Below, piece after piece: positions 1,915 through 6,284 of a DNA stretch of 64,000 nt. The notes beneath the pieces were generated by a model that worked only from the letters and a program-made list of their open reading frames with translations, made no database searches and was not told where the DNA came from. The DNA is taken from NCBI GenBank assembly GCA_019351975.1, contig JABBOG010000004.1, forward strand, positions 1 through 64,000, in the 5' to 3' direction. The position numbers and the translations under genes were made by a program. The stretch is from Acidobacteriota bacterium (GTDB taxonomy: Bacteria; Acidobacteriota; Terriglobia; Terriglobales; Acidobacteriaceae). How positions within the stretch are numbered: position 1 is the stretch's first letter; every line of letters starts with the position of its first letter.

Positions 1915-3333
1915 CTACACCGCTCCACCCAGAGCCTTCGGCAGCTTCTCATAGATATTCCCAAATCCCCCATTCGACAGAATCGCCACCACATCGCCCG
2001 CACGCATCTTCGGCGCGGCCTCCGCCACAATCGCATCCGCATCCGCACACAACAGTGCTGAAACTCCACGCTCCCGCAGCGCCTTCAGCACCCGCTCCGG
2101 CTCCAGCCGTTCCGCCGCCGGTATCGCCTCACTCTTAAACACCGCCGCCAGCACCACCCGGTCCGCCAGCGCCAGTGACGCCACCAGCTCCCGCTCGAAC
2201 ACATTCCTTCGCAGCGTATTCGACCGCGGCTCCAGCACCGCCCACAGCCGCCGCCCCGGATACGAAGCCTTTAAAGCCCGCAGCGTCTCCCGTATCGCCG
2301 TCGGGTGGTGCGCAAAGTCGTCAATGATCGTCACCCCACCCACCTCCGCGCGAACCTCCAGCCGCCGCCGCACGCTCTTGAACGTCGCCAGCGCCTCTAC
2401 AATCGCACTCGCCGGCACCCCCTGCCCAGCCGCAAGCGCCGCCGCAGCCGTCGCATTCAACGCATTGTGCTCACCCGCCATCGGCAGCGTAAGTCGTGCA
2501 AATGCTTCACCATCCCGTAGCATCCTCCAGCTCGTCGTACTGCCTCGCTGCTCCAGTTCCGTCACACGCCAGTGTGACTCCGCTGCGAACCCATACCGCT
2601 CCACCCCGCAAAAAGCCTTCGCGCAACACTCCGTCACATTCTCACTGCCATCGAACGCCACCAGCCGCCCACGCTTCGGAATCAGGTTGACCATCCGCTT
2701 GAACGCCGTCTTCACAGCCGTCAGATCCGCATAAATATCCGCATGATCGAACTCCACATGCGTCAAAATCGCCGCATCCGGAAAGTAGTGCAGAAACTTC
2801 GGCCCCTTATCAAAGAACGCCGTATCGTACTCATCGCCCTCCAGAATGAATGACATCGAAGCCTCGTCCACGCGAAAGCTCGTTCCAAAGTTTTCCGCGA
2901 CGCCACCAATCAGAAATGACGGCGCAAACCGCGCATCTTCCCTTCCGGCCACCTCATAGATCCACGCCAACATGCTCGTCGTCGTGGTCTTTCCGTGCGT
3001 TCCGCAAACGATCAACCGCTCACGTCCTTCAAGAAACGCATCGTGAATCAGCGCTGCCATCGACGTCATCGCCATCCGCTCATCCAGCACCCGCTCCAGC
3101 TCAGGATTCCCCCGCGAGATCGCATTGCCCACCACCACCAGATCCGGCCGCGGCGTCAGATTCTCCGCACTGAACGGTTCCATGATTGCTATACCCATTC
3201 CCCGCAACTGGTCACTCATCGGCGGATACGCCGCCGTATCCGATCCCGTGACGCGATGCCCCTGCGCCCGCAGCATTCCCGCCAGCGACGCCATCGCCGT
3301 ACCGCAGATTCCAATCAGGTGTATGTGCTTCAC
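1915..3333 (-). CDS. mpl: UDP-N-acetylmuramate:L-alanyl-gamma-D-glutamyl-meso-diaminopimelate ligase
   Basis: A Mur-ligase family enzyme of peptidoglycan recycling. It joins recovered Ala-Glu-DAP tripeptide to UDP-MurNAc using ATP in the cytoplasm. The 472-residue product starts with KHIHLIGICGTAMASLAGML (nucleotide-fold glycines). It has the Mur P-loop GTHGKTTTT at about 111-119, EGDEYDTAFFD, THVEFDHADIY and the C-terminal DDFAHHPTAIRETL, which is the Mpl signature. The GTG at 3333 is chosen because homology begins there and a purine-rich SD (AAGGGGAG) lies just upstream. A longer open frame to 3501 only adds non-conserved residues. The gene follows ldcA by 26 bp. The ldcA product supplies the recycling substrate, so the pair makes functional sense. 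Confidence 0.95.
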   Translation of the reverse strand: MKHIHLIGICGTAMASLAGMLRAQGHRVTGSDTAAYPPMSDQLRGMGIAIMEPFSAENLTPRPDLVVVGNAISRGNPELERVLDERMAMTSMAALIHDAFLEGRERLIVCGTHGKTTTTSMLAWIYEVAGREDARFAPSFLIGGVAENFGTSFRVDEASMSFILEGDEYDTAFFDKGPKFLHYFPDAAILTHVEFDHADIYADLTAVKTAFKRMVNLIPKRGRLVAFDGSENVTECCAKAFCGVERYGFAAESHWRVTELEQRGSTTSWRMLRDGEAFARLTLPMAGEHNALNATAAAALAAGQGVPASAIVEALATFKSVRRRLEVRAEVGGVTIIDDFAHHPTAIRETLRALKASYPGRRLWAVLEPRSNTLRRNVFERELVASLALADRVVLAAVFKSEAIPAAERLEPERVLKALRERGVSALLCADADAIVAEAAPKMRAGDVVAILSNGGFGNIYEKLPKALGGAV

Positions 3334-3359
3334 TGGCTCCCCTTCACTCCGTCCATCCG

Positions 3360-4289
3360 TCACAGCATCACTTCGCTCAATGCTGCGTCGTCCATGCATA
3401 CCCGCACGCCCAGCGGTACAGATCGGTTTTGTCGATCTACATGCCCCGATCGCAAGCCGATCGCAATCGGCCCCGCAAATCCGCTCAACGCATGCAGGCA
3501 CGCCGACTCCAGCAGCGGAACATCATCCTCCCTGACATTGGCCGTCGTGTCCCCAAACACGATGCCGCGCACGTTCTCCAGCATACCCGCAAACCTCAAG
3601 TGCTGCAGCATTCTGTCCCACTGGTACGGCTTGGTGTTTATGTCTTCGAGAAACAGAATCGCAGGCTCCTCCACCCTCAACGCATAGCGTGTTCCGAGCC
3701 CCTCCGCCACCATTGAAAGACAGCCTCCGAGCAGCCTTCCCTCCGCGCGCCCTCCTCGCAAGACACGCAGCCCGTCCTCCTCCCCAACGCTCCACGGACC
3801 TTCCCCTTGCACCGCAGCCCGCCACGTCCGCTCATCCGTGCCATTCTCATTCGCCCAGTCCGCCGCGACCATCGGCGCATAATACGTCGTCAACCCGCAC
3901 TCATTCCACAGCCACGCATGCAATGACGTGTGGTCGCTATAACCAACAAAAACCTTAGGATTCTCATGCACCACCCGCGCATCCAGCATCGGCAACAGCT
4001 CCGCAGACCCCCACCCCCCGCGCGTACACACGATTCCCTCAATCGTCGGATCGGCGAAGGCCGCGAGCAAATCCCCAGCGCGCTCCGCTGCCCGTCCCGC
4101 ATAGTACAGTGGCCCTCGGTCCAGCGCGTGAGGCATCACCACCACCTCATATCCAAACGCCTCCAGCCGTCTTCGCCCCGCCTCCACCATCTCAGCCTTC
4201 GCCGCAGACGCAGGCGAGACGATCGCAACGCGGCTCCCCGCCCGCAACCTCGGCCTGCTCGCGCCCCTGCCCCCTCCGTCAATCAACAT
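3360..4289 (-). CDS. ldcA: muramoyltetrapeptide (LD-)carboxypeptidase, peptidase S66 family
   Basis: Removes the terminal D-Ala from the recycled muropeptide tetrapeptide, producing the tripeptide used by Mpl. The product has 309 residues from ATG 4289; a GTG at 4298 is an alternative. It shows the S66 layout: AGSRVAIVSPAS near the N-terminus, the nucleophile motif TRGGWGSAELL (Ser at about 96), the acidic residue in ILFLEDIN, and the histidine in SGHVDRQNRSVPLG. There is no signal peptide, in line with a cytoplasmic recycling enzyme. The start overlaps the end of dapF by about 10 bp (about 20 from the GTG), so the genes are probably translationally coupled. Confidence 0.9.
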   Translation of the reverse strand: MLIDGGGRGASRPRLRAGSRVAIVSPASAAKAEMVEAGRRRLEAFGYEVVVMPHALDRGPLYYAGRAAERAGDLLAAFADPTIEGIVCTRGGWGSAELLPMLDARVVHENPKVFVGYSDHTSLHAWLWNECGLTTYYAPMVAADWANENGTDERTWRAAVQGEGPWSVGEEDGLRVLRGGRAEGRLLGGCLSMVAEGLGTRYALRVEEPAILFLEDINTKPYQWDRMLQHLRFAGMLENVRGIVFGDTTANVREDDVPLLESACLHALSGFAGPIAIGLRSGHVDRQNRSVPLGVRVCMDDAALSEVML

Positions 4290-5088
4290 CCACCTCACCC
4301 GTACAGATGATCTCCGCAGGCCCCGTCAGCATCATCTCCGCCGCTGCGTCAGGCCAAACCACGCGCTGGCTTCCACCCTCCGCCATTGCCACCAGCGCCC
4401 GCTCTGCGCCACGCAGCGTCATCGCCGCAGCCGCCGAAGCGCAGGTTCCCGTTCCGCTTGACGTCGTCGGCCCGCATCCACGCTCATAGATGCGGAACGC
4501 AATCCTGTCCTCCGCTGCAACATGCACAAACTCCACATTCGTCCCGTACCGAAACAGCGGATGCACCGCGATCTTCGCTCCAAGCTCCTGCCAGGCCATC
4601 CCATGAATCGTAAAATCCTCACCCGTAAAGATCACGAAGTGTGGATTCCCAACATTCACCATCGCCCCCTCAATCGGCGACGCGATCCCCTCCACCTCAA
4701 TCGTTCGCTGCATCACACGAGGAACGCCCATCCCACTCTCCACAGTCCACGCAGCGCCATCCCGGCCAACCACGCGACACCGTCGCACTCCTCCATGCGT
4801 CCCCAGCGCCACGTCTTCGATGCCCTCACTCGCCGCAAGCCACGCCGCCACGCATCGCGTTCCATTGCCGCTTAACTCCGCCTCGCTTCCATCCGCATTG
4901 AACAACCGCAGAAAAAAGCTGCCATCCGCGCGACGCTCGACAAACTCAATCCCGTCGGCACCAATGCCGGTATTGCGATGGCACAGCCTGCGCGCCAAAG
5001 CCGCATGCTTTTTCGCTACCGCGCCCTCCTCAAGGATCAGAAAATCATTGCCACACGCGTGCGCCTTCACAAAGCCGATCCGGCTCAT
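4279..5088 (-). CDS. dapF: diaminopimelate epimerase family protein with both catalytic Cys replaced by Ser
   Basis: The 269-residue protein aligns over its full length with DapF, the PLP-independent epimerase that interconverts LL- and meso-diaminopimelate. It keeps ACGNDF (11-16), FNADGSEAELSGNGTRC (63-79), GNPH (147-150) and YERGCGPTTSSGTGTC (201-216). In characterised DapF the two acid/base residues are Cys73 and Cys217. Here both aligned positions are serine, Ser73 (codon AGC at 4870-4872) and Ser211 (AGC at 4456-4458). Binding-pocket residues around them are otherwise well kept. The gene overlaps metB-like by 4 bp (ATGA) and ldcA at the other end, within a peptidoglycan block. It could be a slow epimerase, a non-epimerising relative or a binding protein. 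The symbol denotes family membership only. Confidence 0.85.
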   Translation of the reverse strand: MSRIGFVKAHACGNDFLILEEGAVAKKHAALARRLCHRNTGIGADGIEFVERRADGSFFLRLFNADGSEAELSGNGTRCVAAWLAASEGIEDVALGTHGGVRRCRVVGRDGAAWTVESGMGVPRVMQRTIEVEGIASPIEGAMVNVGNPHFVIFTGEDFTIHGMAWQELGAKIAVHPLFRYGTNVEFVHVAAEDRIAFRIYERGCGPTTSSGTGTCASAAAAMTLRGAERALVAMAEGGSQRVVWPDAAAEMMLTGPAEIICTGEVDVD

Positions 5089-6284
5089 ACTGCTCCAGCC
5101 TCCACTACGCTCACGTTGCTACTTGCATCTTCCGTAGCGTCCATCGCCTGCTCCAAATCAGCAACAATGTCATCAACATCTTCAATCCCCACCGATATCC
5201 GCATCAGCCCGTCCGTGATCCCCAACCGTGCCCGTCCCTCAGCACCTACCGCTGCGTGCGTCATCGTAGCCGGATGACAGATCAGCGTCTCCACGCCGCC
5301 CAGCGACTCCGCCAGATAGCACAGCTTCAACCGCATCGCAAACCGGTTCGCTGCTTCCAGCGATCCAAGCTCAAACGAGATCATCGAACCAAACCCGCGT
5401 TGCTGCCGCTTCGCCAACGCATGCTGTGGATGCGACTCCAACCCCGGATAAAAAACCTTTGCAGCACCCAGCTTGCCTGCGAGAAACTCCGCAACCACGC
5501 GGCCGTTCGCATCATGCTGCTCCATACGCACCGCCAGCGTCTTCACGCCGCGCAGCAGCAAGTAGCTCTCAAACGGCGACAAAATCCCGCCCGTACACTT
5601 CTGCACATAGCGGAATGTCTCCGCCTGCTCCGGTTTGGTGCATATCAGCACACCGCCCAGCCCATCCGAGTGGCCATTCAAAAACTTCGTCGTCGAGTGC
5701 ATCACGATATCCGCACCCAGCTCAATGGGCCGCTGCAGATACGGCGAGAGAAACGTATTGTCTACGCTTAGTTCAACACCCTTCGCATGGCACACATCCG
5801 CAATCGCGCGGATATCACTCACCGACATCATCGGGTTCGTCGGCGTTTCGATATGCACCAGCTTCGTCTCCGGCCGGATCGCCGCACGCACCGCCTCCAC
5901 ATCCGTCGTGTCAACGTACGTAAACGTCAGCCCATAGTTCACCAGAACCTTATCGAAGAGCCGCCCCGTCCCACCGTACACATTGTCCGAGCACACCACA
6001 TGGTCGCCGCTCTTCATCATCGTGCACAGCGCAGTGATCGCCGCCATCCCTGAAGCAAAACAATGAGCAGAGGTCCCACCCTCCAGCGAGCACAGGCTCT
6101 CCTCCAGCGCATCGCGCGTCGGATTCGTCAGCCGCGCATATTCATGTCCCTTGTTCTTCCCAATCGCCTCTTGTCTATACGTCGAGGTCAGGTAAATCGG
6201 CACATTCACTGCACCGGTAAGTGGATCAGGCTGCTGTCCATCATGGATAGCCCGTGTGGCAAAACCTTGCTTCGCATTCGACAT
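5085..6284 (-). CDS. metB: cystathionine gamma-synthase / gamma-lyase type PLP enzyme
   Basis: A Cys/Met metabolism PLP-dependent enzyme of 399 residues, the usual length. Visible are GFATRAIHDGQQPDP at the N-terminus, YARLTNPTRDALE, FASGMAAI, the DNVYGGT loop, ETPTNP and the PLP-binding lysine in HSTTKFLNGHSD. The C-terminal half has SLGGVETLICHPATMTHA and RISVGIEDVDDIV. These motifs fit both MetB (O-succinyl or O-acetylhomoserine plus cysteine) and the reverse transsulfuration lyase. The sequence alone does not decide between them, so the symbol is provisional. It is the first gene of the tightly overlapping block running to mpl; the biochemical link to cell-wall recycling is not obvious. 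Confidence 0.85.
   Translation of the reverse strand: MSNAKQGFATRAIHDGQQPDPLTGAVNVPIYLTSTYRQEAIGKNKGHEYARLTNPTRDALEESLCSLEGGTSAHCFASGMAAITALCTMMKSGDHVVCSDNVYGGTGRLFDKVLVNYGLTFTYVDTTDVEAVRAAIRPETKLVHIETPTNPMMSVSDIRAIADVCHAKGVELSVDNTFLSPYLQRPIELGADIVMHSTTKFLNGHSDGLGGVLICTKPEQAETFRYVQKCTGGILSPFESYLLLRGVKTLAVRMEQHDANGRVVAEFLAGKLGAAKVFYPGLESHPQHALAKRQQRGFGSMISFELGSLEAANRFAMRLKLCYLAESLGGVETLICHPATMTHAAVGAEGRARLGITDGLMRISVGIEDVDDIVADLEQAMDATEDASSNVSVVEAGAV

Follow-up and report, generated by a model that had tools for sequence, protein, structure and literature searches.

A DapF variant with serine at both catalytic positions in Acidobacteriota

The DAP epimerase DapF is a textbook example of an enzyme that relies on two cysteines. 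It is also a drug target, and covalent inhibitors bind its thiols. The locus analyzed here raises the question of what a DapF does when serine occupies both of its catalytic positions. It lies in the window, by which we mean the whole stretch of 64,000 nucleotides of an acidobacterial contig that was analyzed. The genes around it are tightly packed on the minus strand in the order PLP enzyme, dapF, ldcA-like gene and mpl:

5085..6284, minus strand: PLP enzyme of the cystathionine gamma-synthase/lyase kind (many NCBIfam matches, the best 25 listed all below their cut-offs)
4279..5088, minus strand: dapF, Ser/Ser variant, 269 aa, ATG start (TIGR00652, PF01678, phmmer alignments)
4870..4872, minus strand: Ser73 codon AGC, aligned with Cys73 of E. 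coli DapF (coordinates calculated from the ORF start at 5088)
4456..4458, minus strand: Ser211 codon AGC, in the Cys217 column of E. coli DapF (position by arithmetic)
3360..4298, minus strand: ldcA-like LD-carboxypeptidase (Peptidase_S66), GTG ORF, start provisional (PF02016, PF17676; NF008424 at 118 bits, below the cut-off of 378)
1915..3501, minus strand: mpl, murein tripeptide (meso-DAP) ligase, start provisional (TIGR01081 at 422.5 bits, cut-off 388.7)

The ORF of the PLP enzyme ends 4 bases inside the start of dapF, and the ldcA-like ORF, taken from its GTG, overlaps the 3′ end of dapF. Elsewhere in the window, the ORF at positions 19–852 starts less than 20 bases from the contig start and probably represents a cut gene; we take its C-terminal end to resemble lysyl-tRNA synthetase.

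Catalytic columns and gene neighborhood

The protein encoded by dapF in the window is a full-length DapF according to TIGR00652 (205.3 bits; cut-off 114.65) and matches PF01678 in two stretches (139.4 bits). This was the only Pfam family listed at an E-value of 0.001, the models of the proline racemase superfamily being unmatched, and the bifunctional DapF/glutamate racemase model NF038284 reached 80.9 bits for a cut-off of 350. The nearest named protein belongs to Bryocella elongata (75% identity). We take the window to come from the Acidobacteriaceae (Acidobacteriota). The phmmer match to the O-ureidoserine racemase 7vdy_A (E-value 1e-30) was weaker than those to several DapFs.

The phmmer alignments to solved DapFs and the alignment to E. 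coli DapF place Ser73 and Ser211 in the columns of Cys73 and Cys217, the canonical catalytic pair. The preliminary description of this DNA had reported that both catalytic cysteines are replaced by serine, each with an AGC codon, in the motifs NADGSEAELSGNGTRC and GPTTSSGTGTC. These motifs and codons are present, and the columns bear out the replacement and rule out misalignment as its cause. Because its pair is Ser/Ser, we filed the protein as a variant rather than as an ordinary member of the family. The nearby Cys79 and Cys216, which had been considered as the possible true catalytic residues, align instead with E. coli positions 79 and 222, at both of which E. coli DapF has a cysteine in addition to its catalytic pair. 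A sequencing error at 4456 or 4870 is ruled out by the presence of serine at both sites in 97 of the 149 sampled genomes of the phylum, and alternative decoding by the use of both TCN and AGC codons.

The order dapF, ldcA-like gene and mpl was repeated in six named Acidobacteriaceae, but these two neighbors were not found in 20 other Ser/Ser neighborhoods. The link to ldcA and mpl is therefore a habit of the family and not a trait of Ser/Ser DapF. In five of these 20 (f20, f28, f37, f50 and f61), an M20 peptidase was found near dapF, and the one representative that was scanned scored 110 bits against the DapE-ArgE subfamily, below the cut-off of 217.6. In one genome (G218), a Ser/Ser dapF lies ~3.6 kb from lysA.

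Distribution and origins in the phylum

TIGR00652 matched 280 of the 297 genomes of the phylum. We determined the catalytic pair of DapF in 149 genomes, with one locus per genome, in a non-random sample drawn from the best TIGR00652 matches, the best matches to the window protein, low-scoring matches and representatives of families chosen by hand. This sample yielded 97 Ser/Ser proteins (including 31 that belong to the same family as the window), 47 Cys/Cys, 4 Cys/Ser, no Ser/Cys and 1 fragment; E. coli DapF was added to the alignment as a 48th Cys/Cys protein. Ser/Ser was found in 33 and Cys/Cys in 28 of the 62 families sampled, with both pairs in three families (f27, f28 and f42). The variant is thus no local oddity, and these families mostly present other neighborhoods, which speaks against the earlier proposal of a different enzyme recruited to the cell-wall block of mpl and ldcA. 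Nearly all Ser/Ser genomes (92 of 97) had a single TIGR00652 match, and the other five had two or three (G065, G205, G220, G252 and G162).

The Cys/Ser pair was observed in four families of the phylum (f8, f19, f41 and f74) and in two plasmid genes. Outside of the phylum, the comparison covered E. coli and nine plasmid-borne genes, and these ten comprised eight Cys/Cys and two Cys/Ser. The latter two, on plasmids of Burkholderia stagnalis (L247) and Sphingomonas morindae (L250), are diverged DapF-like genes with GSGSC in the place of GTGxC, and the gene of S. morindae is annotated as dapF. Our search of viral contigs returned no relative. A scan of genome contigs gave 80 named loci, all of them Ser/Ser, including Terriglobus roseus, Bryocella elongata, Granulicella rosea, Edaphobacter modestus and Acidipila rosea; the search pattern contained SGNG, so that these loci do not constitute a tally. 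In the excerpts of the open-licence PMC literature that were available, we found no description of a naturally occurring Ser/Ser DapF and nothing usable on the peptidoglycan composition of Acidobacteriaceae.

Several further observations concern individual lineages. Several genomes of family f23 (e.g., G027 and G097) presented only weak partial DapF matches (best E-values of about 1e-14 to 1e-28), and other genomes of this family carry a Ser/Ser DapF as well. Two contigs filed under Rhodanobacteraceae (L164) and Verrucomicrobia (L179) encode DapFs that are 73% and 66% identical to the window protein, and probably represent mislabelled or contaminated assemblies. In family f28, a Cys/Cys dapF adjoins lysA in two genomes (G196:C363 and G274:C105) and other genomes carry a Ser/Ser dapF; a replacement by gene transfer is possible.

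We further analyzed the serine codons of the 97 Ser/Ser genes. The first site is encoded by TCC (40), TCG (23), TCA (12), TCT (11) and AGC (11), i.e., 86 TCN codons, and the second site by TCG (38), TCC (36), TCA (13), TCT (8) and AGC (2), i.e., 95 TCN codons. TCN and AGC codons cannot be interchanged by a single base change. Both kinds are used without a one-base path between them, which indicates that serine itself was held while the codon family moved. Both serines were also invariant in the window protein and 40 relatives, although the SGNG pattern had been used to find these relatives, which partly builds in the invariance of the first serine.

The phylogenetic tree was built with a quick method on 135 of 243 sequences, after removing the two catalytic columns and leaving out near-copies and two fragments. 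The Ser/Ser proteins fell into one main group of 72 of the 79 Ser/Ser rows (support 97), a pair of rows from f3 and f30 located inside the Cys/Cys group of the phylum (support 100) and five rows from f23 and f66 located near the DapFs of E. coli and plasmids (support 99). An AU test on 64 rows rejected a single clade of all Ser/Ser proteins (P = 0.0103) and left acceptable a clade joining the main group to the f23/f66 group (P = 0.464), and the origins that are sure therefore number two and not three. Within what one short alignment can show, at least two origins of Ser/Ser DapF are supported. Since Cys/Ser pairs were observed and Ser/Cys pairs nowhere, the second cysteine was possibly lost first.

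The main Ser/Ser clade (72 rows) was completely split from the Cys/Cys proteins (50 rows) at columns 73 and 217 only. No compensating residue common to the Ser/Ser groups stood out in the comparison of columns; the change from Arg/Lys to Ala at position 82 marks the main clade only. A compensating cysteine was rejected as a candidate, since no cysteine column is shared by the whole main clade and confined to it.

Binding pocket and meso-DAP pathway

All the residues that hold DAP in E. coli DapF (N11, N64, N75, N157, N190, E208, R209 and S/T219, the last as Thr) are kept in the window protein, including the contacts to both ends of DAP. The equivalent of H159 is also kept and that of E213 is Pro. 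The preliminary statement that the rest of the family pattern is intact thus stands for these contacts and for the histidine, and falls at E213. Across the 97 Ser/Ser proteins, the contacts are nearly invariant: N11, N64, N190 and E208 in all 97, N75 and R209 in 96 and N157 in 95. At the position of H159, described as essential for epimerases (excerpts of PMC5885031), 65 Ser/Ser proteins including that of the window carry His and 32 do not. Replacing the matching DAP-contact residues with Ala in C. glutamicum DapF led to near-total loss of activity (excerpts of PMC5296763; residue numbers matched in this analysis).

The AlphaFold model of the window protein (pLDDT 94.6; pTM 0.91) presents the two pseudo-symmetric domains of the DapF fold. 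Its helices span residues 74–88 and 212–226, which places Ser73 and Ser211 each just before a predicted helix N-terminus. Both serines are thus predicted to cap the central helices as the catalytic cysteines do, which sit just ahead of helix starts (excerpts of PMC12039745 and PMC11602996). The best fold-search matches were a cyanobacterial DAP epimerase with inhibitor (9mro_A; Z = 34.3 over 256 residues), Arabidopsis DapF (Z = 33.9) and the O-ureidoserine racemase (Z = 33.8); the solved DapFs ranged from Z = 28 to 34, and one chain of an RppH complex scored Z = 25. These near-equal scores indicate that the substrate cannot be read from the fold alone.

Another gene supplying meso-DAP had been suggested as a possible explanation. 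The genome of the window (95.1% complete) encodes one PF01678 ORF and no second DapF, so that no hidden copy with cysteines was found, and it gave no match to DAP dehydrogenase (TIGR01921), the enzyme of a possible bypass. Yet LysA (473.6 bits; cut-off 297.9), DapB (141.8 bits; cut-off 122) two MurE (492.6 and 461.7 bits; cut-off 257.3) and the Mpl of the window are present, both MurE with the DNPR motif, presumably the mark of a DAP-adding MurE; the suggestion is thus not borne out in this genome. Both MurE genes are full-length (G000:C126:3965-5371 and G000:C58:36994-38430) with other Mur-ligase matches near each, and the second could belong either to a second cell-division/wall cluster or to a foreign contig in the assembly.

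DAP dehydrogenase gave at most weak partial matches below the cut-off in the other Ser/Ser genomes; the two genomes of the phylum (out of 297) with a match above the cut-off, G085 and G196, are both Cys/Cys. On the route to LL-DAP, no match to DapL (TIGR03540) above the cut-off was found in 41 genomes. The substrate of LysA is meso-DAP, and LysA was found above the cut-off in at least 75 of the 97 Ser/Ser genomes and at least 15 of the 47 Cys/Cys genomes, which are raw counts across related genomes. They were obtained from 150 of the 153 genomes above the cut-off, so that up to three more genomes are possible, including among the 22 Ser/Ser genomes for which LysA was unlisted.

Known enzymes and candidate explanations

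The window protein resembles the canonical DapFs of E. coli, H. influenzae, C. glutamicum, Anabaena and Arabidopsis in its family model, fold and DAP contacts, and in being encoded by a single gene alongside a DAP pathway that is otherwise present. It differs from them by its Ser/Ser pair, where they are Cys/Cys, and by the Pro at the E213 equivalent. A partial precedent for a Ser/Ser epimerase, on one face, is the 4-hydroxyproline 2-epimerase B9JQV3 of the proline racemase superfamily, in which 1,1-proton transfer still runs with a Ser93/Cys236 pair (excerpts of PMC4113996), although this enzyme retains one cysteine and belongs to another family with another substrate. The trans-3-hydroxyproline dehydratase B9K4G4 shares a DapF-like fold without a cysteine pair, but its Ser/Thr pair dehydrates, with a non-catalytic Thr on the other face (same excerpts). 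The Asp/Glu racemases EcL-DER and MMP0739 are cofactor-independent enzymes that have naturally lost one thiol and carry a Cys/Thr pair, but have another fold, and a one-way reaction is reported for EcL-DER; the PLP-dependent serine racemase also has a Ser base (excerpts of PMC8142540). Engineered forms with serine at one site are known for H. influenzae DapF (C73S and C217S; 2q9h and 2q9j, both matched in the fold search) and for HisR (C67S/C209S). These are single laboratory mutants, whereas the natural protein of the window carries both serines and has had time to adapt.

The mutants are an argument for a Ser/Ser protein devoid of epimerase activity, with meso-DAP made by an unrecognized and unrelated enzyme. 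Nearly all activity was lost in the Cys-to-Ala mutants of C. glutamicum DapF (excerpts of PMC5296763), it was greatly reduced in the single Cys-to-Ser mutants of HisR (excerpts of PMC11602996), and Cys-to-Ser mutants of such enzymes are made to hinder catalysis (excerpts of PMC12039745). In addition, the alternatives covered by our search were PF01678, TIGR00652, TIGR01921, PF01177 and PF00842 only. A dead enzyme, however, is not expected to keep its DAP contacts and both serines through a change of codon. Few other racemases are available: the window's genome has a single gene of the Asp/Glu-racemase family, expected to be MurI, and two partial alanine racemase matches that form complementary halves on two contigs and are probably one split gene. 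The Asp/Glu-racemase family is absent from 7 of 30 Ser/Ser genomes (G293, G269, G134, G125, G132, G095 and G253), and the alanine racemase C-domain is present in 28 of the 30. A lost activity therefore seems unlikely to us. Candidate sources of D-glutamate in those seven genomes would be a D-amino acid transaminase or a DapF acting on two substrates.

An isomerase or dehydratase acting on another substrate, like the histidine and O-ureidoserine racemases or the Ser/Thr hydroxyproline dehydratase, would agree with the Pro at the E213 equivalent, with the fold being as close to the O-ureidoserine racemase as to DAP epimerases and with the case of B9K4G4; HisR was itself once predicted to be a DapF (excerpts of PMC11602996). 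We nevertheless consider it improbable, given that the protein retains its contacts to both ends of DAP, that it scores above the cut-off of TIGR00652, a DapF equivalog model, and that the genome has no other DapF. Complexes of E. coli RppH with DapF have been solved (6d13 and 6vck, from entry titles), which raises the idea of a non-catalytic partner, e.g., of a nudix hydrolase. This would leave the pathway without its epimerase, and conservation extends to the pocket and not only to a surface, making such a role very doubtful. An epimerase that needs a helper, i.e., PLP or some other cofactor, a metal, or a different residue serving as the base, is equally hard to credit. The DapF of C. trachomatis acts as a glutamate racemase with PLP, but this activity still needs both cysteines (excerpts of PMC5885031). 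The gene upstream of dapF in the window does encode a PLP enzyme, but it was not seen as a common neighbor of dapF in the 26 other neighborhoods compared, and the main Ser/Ser clade has no specific and universal cysteine column.

The conservation of the protein and the context of its pathway point to a working epimerase. With serines in the catalytic columns and at predicted helix-cap positions, DAP contacts that are kept and no other recognized source of meso-DAP, the best reading is that the gene of the window probably encodes a Ser/Ser DAP epimerase converting LL-DAP to meso-DAP for lysine and peptidoglycan, and we hold this view with some reserve. Several observations count against it: the related cysteine mutants are near dead or greatly reduced, the Ser/Thr relative without cysteine is a dehydratase, H159 is not His in about a third of the Ser/Ser proteins, LysA is unlisted in part of their genomes and the window's own genome is incomplete. 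The preliminary view that serine at both positions has a bearing on chemistry was right, and a slower epimerase that is still the cell's only one is possible. Given how common the pair is among relatives, a working redesign is probable rather than a broken gene.

In such an epimerase, Ser73 and Ser211 would act as the two acid/bases of a 1,1-proton transfer, as in Cys/Cys DapF. One seryl oxygen, activated by the helix N-terminus and a closed, dry pocket, would take the alpha proton, and the other seryl hydroxyl would return a proton from the opposite face. Cys/Cys DapF is inactivated by a disulfide under H2O2 (excerpts of PMC5296763), and the benefit of serine might be, as a guess, a pair unable to form this bond under oxidation.

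These results confirm the preliminary observation and widen it from a single gene to a conserved and recurrent Ser/Ser form of DapF. It may be that much of the phylum makes meso-DAP with a cofactor-independent two-base Ser/Ser epimerase that lacks a cysteine base, evolved at least twice from Cys/Cys DapF, possibly by way of Cys/Ser forms, and is free of the disulfide switch and of thiol-directed inhibitors; we regard this wider proposal as evenly balanced between right and wrong. If the Ser/Ser proteins are inactive, a widespread unknown route to meso-DAP would exist in these bacteria. If they are active, they would provide dozens of diverged natural proteins to test, which could be compared with Cys/Cys relatives from the same phylum, and if their pair runs the same reaction, it would be wrong to hold as a rule that a pair of thiols is required for this chemistry.
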